A stretch of 49,399 nucleotides of DNA from Bacteroidota bacterium. Lineage in GTDB: Bacteria > Bacteroidota > Ignavibacteria > SZUA-365. The stretch lies in NCBI GenBank assembly GCA_014860565.1, contig JACZJN010000166.1:1-49399 (forward strand). The letters are read 5' to 3'. Positions 26,078-30,943 of this stretch are shown here, piece by piece (within the stretch, counting starts at the first letter, position 1; each line of letters starts with the position of its first letter). The position numbers were made by a program, and so were the translations under genes. The notes below the pieces were generated by a model. The model worked only from the letters and a program-made list of their open reading frames with translations. It made no database searches and was not told the DNA's origin.

Positions 26078-28693
26078 TCAGCTACGGCCCTCCGCCATCT
26101 TCTTCAATTCGTCCAACAGTTTCCAGGCATCGACGGGGGAGAGCACATTGATGTCGATGGCGCGGAGGCGGTCTTTCAATTCGAGATCGCTGGCTTCGAA
26201 CAGGCTGATCTGGAATTGCCGCGCCCGTGCGGAAATCTTTGCGCGTGCTTCCACGTCGTCGCGGGCCGCGAGCACGGTCAGATCCTGTCCCTCCAGCGAA
26301 TGGAGCACCTGCCGTGCACGGTCGATGACCGAGTCGGGGAGTCCGGCCATTTGTGCGACCTGTATTCCGTAGCTGTGGTCGGCGGTACCGCGGGACACAT
26401 TCCTTAAAAAGATCACTTTATCCTGATATTCCCGCACTTCCACCTTGTAGTTGCGGATGCGGGGAAAAATGTCGGCCATCTCGTTGAGTTCGTGATAGTG
26501 GGTTGCGAACATGGTCTTCGCGCGGCTCTCGGGATGGTCATGCAGGTATTCGGTGATGGCCCAGGCAATCGAAATGCCGTCGAAGGTGGACGTACCGCGG
26601 CCGATTTCATCGAGAAGCACCAGGCTTTTCGGTGTGGCGTTATTGAGGATGTTGGCGGCTTCGTGCATTTCCACGAGGAAGGTGCTTTCTCCGGCTGCGA
26701 TGTTGTCCGAAGCACCCACGCGGGTGAAAATGCGGTCGACGACGCCTATCGAGGCTTCTTTCGCGGGAACGAAGCTTCCGATCTGCGCGAGCAGCACGAT
26801 CAGTCCCGTCTGACGCAGGTATGTGCTTTTGCCGCTCATGTTCGGGCCGGTGATGATCATGATCTGCTCGTCGGCGTTGAGCAGCACATCGTTGGCCACG
26901 AAGCGTTCGCCGGGCGGGAGCAGGCGCTCGACCACCGGATGGCGCCCTTCATGGATGGTGATTTCCGTGCCGTCGTTCATGGTGGGACAGGTGTACCCAT
27001 ACTCCAGCGCGGCGATGGCCAGCGCGTTGATGCAGTCGAGCACCGCGATCGCACGCGAGAGCTGCTGGAGGCGGTCGGCCGTGGCGGCGACGGCCATGCG
27101 CAGTTCGTTGAACAACTCGGTCTCGAGCGTCACGATCTGTTCACGCGCATTGAGCACTTTTTCCTCGTACTCCTTCAGCTCCGGGGTGACATAGCGCTCG
27201 GCATTCGTCAGCGTCTGCCGGCGGATGAAGGTCTCGGGCACTTTGTCGAGATTCGCGTTCGAAACGTTGATGAAATATCCGAAGGCCTTGTTGTATTCAA
27301 GCCGCAGCGAACTGATGCCGGTTTCGCGGCGCAGCCGCTCCTGGTAGTTGCGGATCCATTCCTTGCCGTGCGTGGCGATGTCGCGGATCTCGTCGAGTTC
27401 GGCATGATAGCCCGGACGAATGGCGCCGCCGTCGTTGAGCGACATCGGCGGATCGTCCACCAGTGTCTCGTCGATGAGACGCGCAACGTCGTCGAGCGGC
27501 TCAATCTGCGAGTGGAGCGAACGCAGGTATGGTGCATCGCAATCCTGCATCGCGTCGCGCAGCAAAGGGACGCGGCGCAGCGAGGCGCGCAGTGCGGTGA
27601 GTTCCCGAGGGAGTGCGCGTCCGGTGCAGATGCGTCCGGTCAGGCGGTCGAAATCCACCATCTCTCCGAGCATGTCGTGGATGCGGTCGCGGCGTTCATG
27701 CGCGGTGGTGAGTTCCTTCACCGCGGCAAGGCGCTGCTGGATGGCGTCGAGCTTCTTGAGCGGATGTGTGACCCAGTACTTGAACAGTCGTCCGCCCATC
27801 GACGTCGCCGTTTTGTCGAGGATGGAGATGAGCGTGCCGTCCTTGCTGCCCTCGCCGATGGAGGCGATGATCTCGAGATTGCGGCGGGTGGAGGCATCGA
27901 GTGTGATGTAGTCGTCGGCCAGGTAATGCCGGATGTTCTGGAGGTGGGGGAGATTGGCTTTCTGCGTTTCCTTCAGGTAATGCAGCGCAGCTCCCGCGGC
28001 GATGACGCCCGCGGTCAGCGTTTCAATCCCGAAGCCCTTGAGCGACTGCGTCTTGAAATGCGTGACGAGGATTTCATAACTCGTGTCACGGGCATACACC
28101 CAGTCGTCGATTTTCGTGATCGGTACGCGCAGGGGATTGCGGCCGAAGAGGTCGTGGAAGTGGTCGATGTCCTTTTTCGCCAGCAGCACTTCCGACGGAC
28201 CGATGGTATCGAGCTGATCCCGCAGCTGATGTTCCGCGATCTCGCTTGTGAAGAAATCCCCGGTCGATGCGTCGACGAAGGCGACACCCGCGGTTGCCCC
28301 GTGAAACGCGATGGAGGCGAGAAAGTTGTAATGCTTGTGGTCGAGCAACTTGTCGGTGAACACCACGCCCGGAGTGACAATCTCCACCACGTCGCGCTTG
28401 ACGATGCCCTTGGCCTTTTTGGGATCCTCCATCTGTTCGCACACCGCCACGCGCAATCCAGCGCGGATCAGTTTCGGCAGATAGGTATCAAGTGCATGAT
28501 GCGGAAAGCCCGCAAGCGGTACCTCGGTCGCCGCTCCGTTCGATCGTTTGGTCAGCGTTATCCCGAGCACCTTCGCTGCGGTTATGGCATCTTCCTCGAA
28601 TGTCTCATAGAAGTCGCCCATGCGAAACAGCAGGATCGCGTCCGGATACTCGGACTTGATCTGCTGGTATTGTCGCATTAATGGAGTGGACAT
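26078..28693 (-). CDS. mutS: DNA mismatch repair protein MutS
   Basis: This full-length 871-aa MutS binds mismatches and starts repair with MutL. The N-terminal mismatch-binding motif is GDFYETFEEDA (the Phe-x-Glu pair), followed by the connector, lever and clamp domains (QTLTNAERYVTPELKEYEEK) and the ATPase domain with Walker A TGPNMSGKSTYLRQT, Walker B LVLLDEIGRGTSTFDG and the FATHYHEL motif. The C-terminus has a short helical dimer region. It appears to be a single gene: mutL is not in the window, and the flanking sequences on both sides are repeat arrays. The upstream ribosome site is weak. Confidence 0.97.
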   Translation of the reverse strand: MSTPLMRQYQQIKSEYPDAILLFRMGDFYETFEEDAITAAKVLGITLTKRSNGAATEVPLAGFPHHALDTYLPKLIRAGLRVAVCEQMEDPKKAKGIVKRDVVEIVTPGVVFTDKLLDHKHYNFLASIAFHGATAGVAFVDASTGDFFTSEIAEHQLRDQLDTIGPSEVLLAKKDIDHFHDLFGRNPLRVPITKIDDWVYARDTSYEILVTHFKTQSLKGFGIETLTAGVIAAGAALHYLKETQKANLPHLQNIRHYLADDYITLDASTRRNLEIIASIGEGSKDGTLISILDKTATSMGGRLFKYWVTHPLKKLDAIQQRLAAVKELTTAHERRDRIHDMLGEMVDFDRLTGRICTGRALPRELTALRASLRRVPLLRDAMQDCDAPYLRSLHSQIEPLDDVARLIDETLVDDPPMSLNDGGAIRPGYHAELDEIRDIATHGKEWIRNYQERLRRETGISSLRLEYNKAFGYFINVSNANLDKVPETFIRRQTLTNAERYVTPELKEYEEKVLNAREQIVTLETELFNELRMAVAATADRLQQLSRAIAVLDCINALAIAALEYGYTCPTMNDGTEITIHEGRHPVVERLLPPGERFVANDVLLNADEQIMIITGPNMSGKSTYLRQTGLIVLLAQIGSFVPAKEASIGVVDRIFTRVGASDNIAAGESTFLVEMHEAANILNNATPKSLVLLDEIGRGTSTFDGISIAWAITEYLHDHPESRAKTMFATHYHELNEMADIFPRIRNYKVEVREYQDKVIFLRNVSRGTADHSYGIQVAQMAGLPDSVIDRARQVLHSLEGQDLTVLAARDDVEARAKISARARQFQISLFEASDLELKDRLRAIDINVLSPVDAWKLLDELKKMAEGRS

Positions 28694-28708
28694 ATCGATA
28701 TACTTTCG

Positions 28709-28746
28709 ACACTAAGACGCGAAGGCACGAAGACACAACGCACAAG
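28709..28746. repeat. 8-bp tandem repeat array, left flank of the GxxExxY gene
   Basis: GACGCGAA, GGCACGAA, GACACAAC and GCACAAGA lie in 8-bp register, in the 63-bp gap between mutS and the GxxExxY gene. The array is the reverse complement of the array at 29181-29212, about 20 of 23 bases identical in the core. Confidence 0.85.
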
Positions 28747-28756
28747 ATAAAAAGAA

Positions 28757-29152
28757 TCAGAGTATGATGCGCTTGATACCTGATTTTATCAGTGGAACAT
28801 TGAAATTGATCAGCAGGCCAAGCCGTAACGACGTCAATTTAAGATACGTGAGCAGCTGCGCCCGGTGGACAGGGAGCGTCTGTTCGACCGCTTTTACTTC
28901 TACGATGACGCACTCATGAATCAACATATCCAGCCGGTACCCACAAGGGACGAACAGATCCCGATACTGCACCGAAACCGGTATTTGTGTTTCGACCTTC
29001 ATACCCCGTGTTCGAAGCTCATACGAAAGAACGCGTTCATATGTCGATTCGAGTAACCCGGGCCCTAGCGCTGAATGCACCCGATATGCGGCATCGACAA
29101 TTGCTCTGGCGGTCGATTCCGTTTCGATGCCGAGCGGCGTGTACGTTTCCAC
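28757..29152 (-). CDS. GxxExxY family protein (possible PD-(D/E)XK-type fold)
   Basis: A 131-aa protein with the family signature GPGLLESTYE, the central block VQYRDLFVPCGYRLDMLIHECVIVEVKAVE, and LPVHRAQLLTYLKLTSLRLGLLINFNV before a basic C-terminus. The D...EVK arrangement resembles PD-(D/E)XK nucleases, but no activity is established to my knowledge. A GTG start at 29152 is chosen for the GGGAG site 7 bases upstream; the frame also allows TTG at 29176. The gene is bracketed by inverted 8-bp repeat arrays (28709-28746 and 29181-29212), which together look like a cassette inserted between mutS and ade. Confidence 0.88.
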   Translation of the reverse strand: METYTPLGIETESTARAIVDAAYRVHSALGPGLLESTYERVLSYELRTRGMKVETQIPVSVQYRDLFVPCGYRLDMLIHECVIVEVKAVEQTLPVHRAQLLTYLKLTSLRLGLLINFNVPLIKSGIKRIIL

Positions 29153-29180
29153 ATCTTTTCTCCCTAATATTAACAATATG

Positions 29181-29212
29181 GTGTCTTCGTGTCTTTGTGT
29201 CTTCGTGTTCCC
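29181..29212. repeat. 8-bp tandem repeat array, right flank of the GxxExxY gene
   Basis: GTGTCTTC, GTGTCTTT, GTGTCTTC and GTGTTCCC in strict 8-bp register. Read on the minus strand this is GAAGACAC repeated just upstream of the GxxExxY gene, inverted relative to the left array. Confidence 0.9.
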
Positions 29213-29227
29213 GATTTTTCCGAGGAT

Positions 29228-30943
29228 TTACACAAACATCGATGTCAGTTCGAACTTCACGGCGTCGACCAGGCCCATGTCGGTCACCTTCAGAGCAGGG
29301 ATGGGCGAGAGGGCGAGGAAGGACAGAGTCATGAACGGATCCGGGAGCACGCAGCCCAGACCGGCCGCTGCGGCGATGAGAGCGTCGACCTTTCGGCGCA
29401 CGAATTCCAAAGGTTGATCAGAAACGAGGCCTGCAATGGGAAGCGGCAATTCCTCGATCACGCGGGCGTCGCTGACGACGCACTGTCCGCCACCGAGGCG
29501 GATCAGATGCAGCGCCGCGGCGTACATGTCGAGATCGTTGGTGCCGACGACGATGATGTTGTGCGCATCGTGTGCGACGGTGGACGCCAACGCACCCCGC
29601 TGCAGTCCGAAGCCACGTACGAAACCGAGTCCTATGTTGCCTGTGGCGTGATGACGTTCGATGACCGCAAGCTTGAGAATGTCGCGCGTGGGATCTGCCT
29701 CGACATAATCGTCCTCCACGCGGGGATCGACGATGGCCGCGGTCGTGATGATCTGGCGGGGCACGAGTTCGATCACTTTCAATTTGCTGTGCGGCACGAC
29801 GGAAACGAGGAAGCTGTCTTTCCAGAATTCTCCTACGTGCATGGTGTCGGTCATGTGGGACATGTCCGGCGAGGGTGCGGCTTCCGCGGTATAGATGCCA
29901 TCACGGGCGACCAGCGTCCCCTGGTAATACACTTCCTCCGCACGGATGTCGTCGAGATCGGAGAACAGGATCATGTTCGCCCATCTGCCAGGCGCAATCG
30001 CGCCATGCTGCTGCAGATTGTAGTGCCGGGCGGTGTTGATCGTCGCGATCTGCAGAACGGTCATCGGATCGAGTCCGAAGCGGATGGCTTCGCGCACGTG
30101 ATGGTCGATATGGCCCTCGTCCGCAAGATCGGCGGGATGTTTGTCGTCGGTCGCGAACGAGAACTGCGCCGCATTCTGTAGCGTGACCAGAGGCAGAAGG
30201 TCGTGGAGGTTGCGTTCGGCCGTGCCTTCGCGCATGAGAATCTGCATGCCGCGGCGCAGCTTCGCGCGCGCTTCCTCGATCGTCGTGCATTCGTGATCGC
30301 TGCGCACGCCCGCGAGGATGTACGCATCGAGATTGGGACCGGTGAGCCCGGGCGCGTGTCCGTCGACACGCTTGCCGCGAGCAGCGTCGATCTTGGCAAG
30401 TTCCGAATCCATACCGTTGTAAACGCCGGGGAAATTCATCAGCTCGGCGACACCGAGTACATTGTCGTGGCCGGTGTAGAGCACGATATCCACCGCCGTC
30501 AACCGCGCGCCGGACGTTTCGAGGGGCGTGGCGGGCACACACGACGACATCATCACGAATATATCCAGCGGGAGGTCCTTTGCGGCGTCGAGCACATAGT
30601 CGATGCCGTCAAGCCCTACCACGTTGGCGTATTCATGCGGATCGACGATCGCCGCCGCCGTCCCGTGCGGTACCACTGCGCGTGCGAATTCCGCCACGGT
30701 GAGCATCGTGCTTTCAACATGAATATGAGCGTCGATGAAAGAGGGAGCGAGGTAGCGTCCCCCGCAGTCGACGACGGTTTTGCCGTTGTAAGAACCGATG
30801 CCGGCGATCATGCCGTTGGACACGGCCACATCGCCCTCGTGAATTTCTCCACTGAGCACGTTGACGATGCGGGCATTGCGGAATACGATGTCGGCCTGTT
30901 CGTCCCCCCGCGCTACCGAGAGTTTCTGCCGGATGTCATCCAT
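29228..30943 (-). CDS. ade: Adenine deaminase
   Basis: This 571-aa amidohydrolase converts adenine to hypoxanthine and ammonia in purine salvage. The metal-site motif is FIDAHIHVESTM, followed by GTAAAIVDPHEYANVVG, then HAPGLTGPNLDAYILAGVRSDHECT, typical of bacterial Ade/YicP, and the C-terminal insertion with GFVRGFGLQRGALASTVAHDAHNIIVVG. A consensus AGGAGG lies 7 bases before the ATG. It appears monocistronic; repeats occupy the gaps on both sides. Confidence 0.95.
   Translation of the reverse strand: MDDIRQKLSVARGDEQADIVFRNARIVNVLSGEIHEGDVAVSNGMIAGIGSYNGKTVVDCGGRYLAPSFIDAHIHVESTMLTVAEFARAVVPHGTAAAIVDPHEYANVVGLDGIDYVLDAAKDLPLDIFVMMSSCVPATPLETSGARLTAVDIVLYTGHDNVLGVAELMNFPGVYNGMDSELAKIDAARGKRVDGHAPGLTGPNLDAYILAGVRSDHECTTIEEARAKLRRGMQILMREGTAERNLHDLLPLVTLQNAAQFSFATDDKHPADLADEGHIDHHVREAIRFGLDPMTVLQIATINTARHYNLQQHGAIAPGRWANMILFSDLDDIRAEEVYYQGTLVARDGIYTAEAAPSPDMSHMTDTMHVGEFWKDSFLVSVVPHSKLKVIELVPRQIITTAAIVDPRVEDDYVEADPTRDILKLAVIERHHATGNIGLGFVRGFGLQRGALASTVAHDAHNIIVVGTNDLDMYAAALHLIRLGGGQCVVSDARVIEELPLPIAGLVSDQPLEFVRRKVDALIAAAAGLGCVLPDPFMTLSFLALSPIPALKVTDMGLVDAVKFELTSMFV

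Follow-up and report, generated by a model that had tools for sequence, protein, structure and literature searches.

The gap between mutS and ade in the window (the whole stretch of 49,399 nucleotides of Bacteroidota DNA that was analysed) holds a pair of inverted octamer arrays around one GxxExxY gene. Going by sequence comparison, this cassette is probably a chromosomal mobile-repeat system in its gene-bearing form, in which a predicted PD-(D/E)XK nuclease drives the dispersal of hairpins of its own flavour. The broader proposal, to which we give an even chance, is that array-armed hairpins dispersed by a dedicated Cas4-like PD-(D/E)XK nuclease, and not by a transposase, make up a new class of mobile DNA that occurs across many bacterial phyla. 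As part of that proposal, and just as evenly balanced, each nuclease lineage would be coevolving with its own flavour as a convergent counterpart of REPIN-RAYT.

The cassette in the mutS-ade gap

An earlier note, made from the sequence of the window alone, had placed a GxxExxY gene between inverted arrays of 8-bp repeats at this position, and the repeat search agrees: the two arms are 28 nt long and 86% complementary, with a 13-nt perfect core and 444 nt between them, and the protein scores 144.1 bits against TIGR04256. Both neighbours are on the minus strand, mutS starting at 28693 and ade, an adenine deaminase by profile search of the neighbours, having its stop near 29228. The note was right in putting one array on each side in inverted orientation, and its strand sense has to be turned around: because the gene runs on the minus strand, its downstream array is the left one and its upstream array the right one. 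Read in the direction of the gene, the upstream arm is of the CACGAAG type. The ORF lister begins the gene at a TTG at 29176 (28757-29176), but the GTG is the likely start because of the TAGGGAG ahead of it and a matching start in relatives; at the mutS-ade site of relatives, a similar AGGGAG precedes the gene.

Table 1. Features of the cassette, in window coordinates
Feature	Position	Strand	Remarks
Left octamer array, ACACTAAG ACGCGAAG GCACGAAG ACAC	28709..28736	+	3' of gene; inverted copy of right array
Right octamer array, minus-strand reading ACACGAAGACACAAAGACACGAAGACAC	29181..29208	-	5' of gene
GxxExxY / PDDEXK_3 gene	28757..29152	-	likely GTG start at 29152
TAGGGAG, Shine-Dalgarno-like	29160..29166	-	7 nt ahead of GTG
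Entire mutS-ade intergenic insertion	28694..29227		534 bp

At no more than 1 mismatch, the two-unit pattern CRCRRAGNCRCRRAG has 9 matches in the whole window where 1.93 are expected. None of 100 shuffles gives as many, and the two cassette arrays account for 5 of the 9. Rfam has no RNA family match across 28400-29500, and PHROG gives a weak match to a phage family (E = 0.052).

The predicted nuclease

The TIGR04256 score compares with a cut-off of 35, and PDDEXK_3 (PF13366) scores 138.2 bits with a cut-off of 22. In 139-aa numbering, the window protein has all of G38, G40, E43, Y46, D83, E93, K95, Q107, and Y111. E43, D83, E93, and K95 are invariant in sets of 30 and of 79 sequences, as are G38, G40, and Y46, while Q107 and Y111 are invariant among the 30 and nearly so among the 79, so that comparison finds the active-site pattern intact. 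The AlphaFold model has a pLDDT of 92.3. Its top Foldseek match is SSO0001 (prob 1.00, E = 4.8e-3), which we take to be a Cas4, followed by lambda-type exonucleases. The VIA comparison likewise has SSO0001 at Z = 9.8 as the only chain with Z of at least 8; rows below 8 are ties and are not used for naming a function. A PDB sequence search finds no relative at an E of 1 or better. With its conserved active site and a modeled fold like that of Cas4 and lambda exonuclease, we place the window protein in the PD-(D/E)XK superfamily as a predicted nuclease.

Bracketing of GxxExxY genes across phyla

Relatives were sampled from named genome records by taking the best 80 of 579 confirmed candidates, 4 of which were dropped because their flanks were too short, and the 76 tested loci are thus those closest to the window protein. 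The control for bracketing consisted of 755 windows with the same gap from the same loci, with a maximum score of 30. Among these best-matching loci, inverted flanking arrays exceed the 99th percentile of the control at 58 of the 76, in line with the earlier note's statement that GxxExxY genes often sit within such repeats, and arms do not rise above the threshold at the other 18. About five of the 58 positives (L085, L100, L128, L142, L151) are not octamer-like as judged by eye. By record title, the positives in this best-80 sample come from Bacteroidota, Chloroflexi, Planctomycetes, Verrucomicrobia, Acidobacteria, Cyanobacteria, Proteobacteria, Desulfobacteraceae and other deltaproteobacteria, Spirochaetes, Gemmatimonadaceae, others, and one archaeal MAG. 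A score of at least 30 is reached at 51 of the 76 loci versus 9 of 346 neighboring ORFs, and several of those 9 adjoin a GxxExxY gene and reach that gene's arrays.

Arms are not found on every copy. The window genome (G000) has three PDDEXK_3 genes, the second of which, L002, is flanked by a very different inverted repeat, GAACCACAGAGGGCTTGAAGGGCTAGGAGGATTTTT, and the third, L001, has no matched arms; matched arms are absent from the three orthologous copies G000_C191, G198_C46, and G199_C209. Among 24 copies in the window's own family, the arms score at least 35 in 19, and 5 have none. Some GxxExxY genes, at G099 loci L238 and L243 and at L215, lie between arrays of very different units, CGAATTA and AGGATTA. 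Several GxxExxY matches in G055, G099, G035, and G222 are fragmented or have stops, and decaying copies seem to be common in the genomes compared, which are mostly drafts or MAGs.

The repeat unit and the matching of the two arms

Of 166 loci with enough flank, a set that includes duplicates (e.g., L082 is the same as L001, and the arms of L219 are common to L097), 130 have arms. Over these 130 loci and their 260 arms, the core of the repeat is a degenerate 7-mer, CRCNN[AC][GT], to which the CGAATTA and AGGATTA units above do not conform. Two or more cores are present in 195 of the 260 arms and in 5 after shuffling, and their spacing is 8-10 bp in 287 of 392 cases. By a crude motif count, the CRCRRAG strand is upstream of the gene at 97 of the 130 loci.

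The flavour of the unit varies among loci, including CGCAAAG, CACAGAG, CACGAAG, CGCAGAT, CACGGATC, CGCAACG, and others, and is the same in both arms of one locus. The copy of Nostoc sp. 106C (L119), for example, has clean arms of the CGCAAAG flavour. When whole flanks are compared over 118 loci (identical arms removed), a locus's own downstream flank has a median rank of 1 and its own arm is the best match in 52 of the 118, so arm matching within loci is a direct result of the comparison. The outer ends of the cassette in sister species behave in the same way, with ATCTTGGGGGCAC on both sides in G205 and ATCTTGAGAGCAC on both sides in G208. CACGAAG had been a candidate for the defining repeat, and it was dropped, since the flanks of other copies held many flavours and only the periodic degenerate core is general.

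Coupling of arrays and flavour to the gene

Of the 198 genomes compared in the phylum, 101 have the gene, with up to 12 copies each, so the earlier note's description of GxxExxY as multicopy is accurate. Over the 198 genomes, the pattern CRCRRAGNNCRCRRAG averages 15.4 occurrences in those that have the gene (backward control 1.7) versus 3.5 in those that do not (control 3.9). The excess differs between genomes with and without the gene at p = 1.3e-15, and 0 of 2000 within-family permutations reach the observed value. Flanks of the gene cannot account for the counts, because G184 and G112 have 72 and 48 array matches with one gene copy each. Among the 97 genomes lacking the gene, five show an excess of at least 8, and these arrays could be remnants.

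The coupling extends to flavour. CACGAAG-type arrays number 68, 30, 13, 11, and 20 in G000, G202, G205, G207, and G208, where the window-type gene occupies the mutS-ade site. The number is 0 in G201, G203, G204, and G206, whose GxxExxY genes are of other kinds, with none at mutS-ade. Other counts run against this pattern: there are 28 in G198 and 15 in G199 (an incomplete genome), neither of which yielded a window-like gene, and only 5 in G200. Arrays of the AAGAAAAAACCAC type number 14, 20, 29, and 43 in G000, G198, G199, and G200, with none seen in the sister genus. The earlier note had named arrays occurring at random and independently of the gene as a result that would speak against its idea; arrays away from the gene instead track both the presence of the gene and the resident flavour.

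The main alternative is that a RAYT, TIRYT, or IS transposase moves the hairpins and that the GxxExxY gene is a favoured passenger between arrays. The available part of PMC3733652 describes RAYT and TIRYT genes that lie between terminal inverted repeats with copies dispersed elsewhere, Acidobacteria included, and unpartnered single arrays are common in the window genome. We nevertheless consider this explanation unlikely, because GxxExxY genes are bracketed in many phyla and neighboring ORFs are not (the 51 of 76 versus 9 of 346 given above for the best 80 of 579), because array excess increases with the number of gene copies (Spearman 0.62 over the 198 genomes), and because protein similarity correlates with array similarity over 118 loci (rho 0.30, reached by 0 of 300 Mantel permutations, with host relatedness still included in the correlation). 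We infer that it is the GxxExxY nuclease, and not another enzyme, that moves the hairpins.

Coming and going at the mutS-ade site

The mutS-ade order is present in 13 of 30 mutS loci fetched. In 7 of the 13 genomes, the gap (512-604 bp) contains a GxxExxY cassette with matching arms, and in 6 it does not (15-292 bp); in G206, a congener of four occupied genomes, the gap is 21 bp. The empty sites whose existence the earlier note had raised are therefore real, and the gene is not fixed at this site in all relatives, which the note had listed as an outcome unfavourable to mobility. At the G202 site (L167), the array on the ade side is in three successive copies, which suggests repeated addition at one end. 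No clean target-site duplication is seen at mutS-ade or at two gene-less sites, where the flanks are much diverged, and no excision product was found.

The identity of the occupants is uneven. G200 has a mutS 85% identical and a GxxExxY copy 66% identical to those of the window, while G198 has a mutS stretch 97% identical and a copy at the same site only 44% identical, in CACGAAAA-type arrays. Replacement of the G198 cassette by another is likely, and in the tree, common descent as a fast-changing orthologue is not rejected (p-AU 0.28-0.37). Such a replacement is also what one might see if a homing-endonuclease-like cassette cut cassette-free alleles at preferred intergenic sites and were copied in by repair, with the gene-less palindromes left over as remnants of internal deletion. 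The same site is occupied in several species of two genera, and I-Bth0305I is among the weak Foldseek fold matches. This homing explanation is very improbable in our judgment, given that the gene-less elements read have no visible gene remnants in their spacers, that gene-less copies are at many unrelated sites, and that the G198 copy may be the fast-changing orthologue just mentioned.

As for the gene itself, 26 copies from 6 genomes were compared, and 0 of 50 pairs are at least 80% identical, the maximum being 78%; transposition of the gene within a genome was dropped as an idea on this result. Recent spread thus concerns the gene-less hairpin and not the gene. The earlier note's suggestion of a mobile cassette accordingly holds as far as patchy occurrence (101 of 198) and the empty sites (6 of 13) go, and does not hold for recent duplication of the gene. 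The gene is on 6 of 72,556 plasmids and 0 of 50,697 phages, so spread from cell to cell is left unexplained. Our reading is that GxxExxY is a resident chromosomal enzyme whose repeats spread, and not a jumping gene.

Gene-less hairpins

Two-unit arrays far from the gene number 72 + 83 in the window genome at up to 2 mismatches versus 29 + 44 for the control, and with the stricter CACGAAG-type pattern, there are 68 versus 0. Many of the gene-less copies consist of an inverted array pair separated by a spacer no longer than about 80 nt; they often contain a G+C-rich inner hairpin and are positioned just 3' of stop codons. An ORF-based tally of which arrays are intergenic is unreliable at the high G+C content of this genome and is left out of account. 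An inverted partner scoring at least 30 exists for 13 of 29 array clusters read in the window genome versus 5 of 60 random windows, and all five elements that were folded as single-stranded DNA gave z between -6.3 and -8.4. Near-identical copies are dispersed: G200 has three gene-less elements of 137 nt that are 93% identical, of which C9 has no flank in common with C16 and C263, and the latter two have one flank in common. G170 has 85 matches, and of 15 array regions read there, several are similar to the arms of particular resident genes, e.g., L318 resembles gene L244, L315 resembles L228, and L322 resembles L234. L322 (G170:C1 about 2313262) is a gene-less CACGAATT palindrome, the flavour of gene L234, nested in a CGCAAAG palindrome. 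When two gene-less sites of the window genome are traced in relatives, some relatives have a palindrome of another flavour in the same position (G198 and G199, and at the L036 site G206, with GGATTAC units), and others have none.

The position of these elements raises the alternative that a housekeeping or defence nuclease acts on hairpins, with arrays that are selected binding sites or terminators and arms kept alike by template switching rather than by transposition. Many gene-less elements do have the G+C-rich inner hairpin just 3' of stop codons, relatives at the L035 site have a similar inner hairpin without arrays, and template switching would give the co-variation of arms. We think this quite improbable even so, because the gene is patchy and its mutS-ade site is empty in relatives, the flavour found at one intergenic site varies from species to species, elements that are nearly identical lie in unlike flanks, the L036 site lacks a conserved inner hairpin, and PADLOC gives only a weak match to Cas4 (E = 0.0068), along with Cas4b (E = 0.033). 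The L035 site had also suggested that arrays were inserted around pre-existing host terminators, an idea that was rejected when the relatives without arrays at L036 were also found to be without the inner hairpin.

The L035 region has further features of its own. At L035:6047-6711 (G000:C129), a VapB/PIN toxin-antitoxin pair is between two array palindromes and is absent at the orthologous G198 site, and for this reason other small cassettes may be caught between arrays. The palindrome L035:6720-6860 aligns better with G198:C91 when inverted, at 84% over 136 nt, as recombination between arms would give. L035:361-406 and G198 C18, C50, C13, and C91 belong to a 46-nt repeat family with many G198 copies, in places in 27-bp steps, that has no visible relation to the octamer arrays.

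A possible mechanism and its significance

Mobility of the system, which we infer from these sequence comparisons, could work as follows. The element would be a large hairpin whose arms are inverted arrays of CRCNN[AC][GT] every 8-10 bp, with an autonomous form that has the GxxExxY PD-(D/E)XK nuclease gene in the loop and a non-autonomous form that has the same arms and a short spacer. The nuclease would recognise arms of its own flavour when these are folded or cruciform and, being Cas4-like, may open or cut DNA at or near the hairpin. The freed hairpin, in whatever strand form the intermediate presumably takes, would then be repaired or copied, and by a putative insertion chemistry become a gene-less copy in another intergenic site. 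Copying from arm to arm would keep the two arms alike.

GxxExxY is a common family for which we found no assigned role. If the coupling signifies what it suggests, GxxExxY would be a restriction-fold nuclease family with dispersed hairpin repeats of its own. REP-like palindromes would then have a second origin beside the HUH transposases, and many intergenic repeats that are now unassigned would be explained. Because the hairpins often have terminator-like cores 3' of stop codons, their movement would rewire gene ends. The match of enzyme lineage and flavour also offers a ready test of how a nuclease coevolves with a degenerate, periodic DNA target.

Comparison with known systems

No published description of the GxxExxY-array system was found in open-access papers, with preprints and the NCBI text for TIGR04256 outside the scope of the search. 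Mentions of GxxExxY in the retrieved portions of that literature are passing ones, and the exact octamer string has one match there, in the excerpt of a fish eDNA paper.

By fold, the closest likeness is to Cas4 and lambda exonuclease, with SSO0001 at the top, lambda-type exonucleases next, and the D-ExK with Q-x3-Y present in the window protein. Archaeal Hjc resolvase is of the same fold class, with 1gef at Z = 7.3, a score under 8 that is tied with many restriction-like folds; Hjc has a conserved Glu ahead of the core.

By organization, the closest likeness is to REPIN-RAYT. The available parts of PMC3116915 and PMC3733652 describe dispersed gene-less extragenic palindromes of two inverted units and a spacer, predicted to form hairpins, and a dedicated enzyme gene flanked by its own repeat with repeat-specific pairing. 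The two systems are alike, as far as those texts and the available part of PMC8266576 go, in a resident enzyme lineage with its own repeat, in dispersed inverted doublets, and in dependence on the gene; as in a REPtron, the gene-less inverted doublets here are dispersed and tied to gene presence. They differ in that the REPIN-RAYT or REPtron enzyme is an HUH-Y1 TnpA_REP, whereas only PDDEXK_3/GxxExxY is found in the bracketed gene here, and in that the REP palindrome of a REPtron, 20-40 bp long, has a GTAG/CGTC tag at its foot, whereas the arms here are arrays of the degenerate CRCNN[AC][GT] core in steps of 8-10 bp and no such shared tag is seen in them by eye. Unlike REPIN-RAYT, the GxxExxY system also has several genes of different flavours in one genome (up to 12 genes). 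Since enzyme and repeat are unrelated, the GxxExxY system is not a member of REPIN-RAYT, and by analogy it would work like one if our reading of the nuclease holds.

The TIRYT/TIRtron arrangement, in the part of PMC3733652 that covers it, has a nuclease gene between long terminal inverted repeats, some of which also have copies dispersed elsewhere, and is in this respect like the GxxExxY cassette. It differs in its tyrosine HUH transposase and in the GGGGWSAS common to several of its terminal inverted repeats, where the GxxExxY cassette has octamer arrays.

If any pair of a repeat and a dedicated nuclease were counted as one kind, the GxxExxY-array system would be a variant of it. We rate it as new in kind, because no described system known to us couples a PD-(D/E)XK nuclease to array hairpins that are dispersed.
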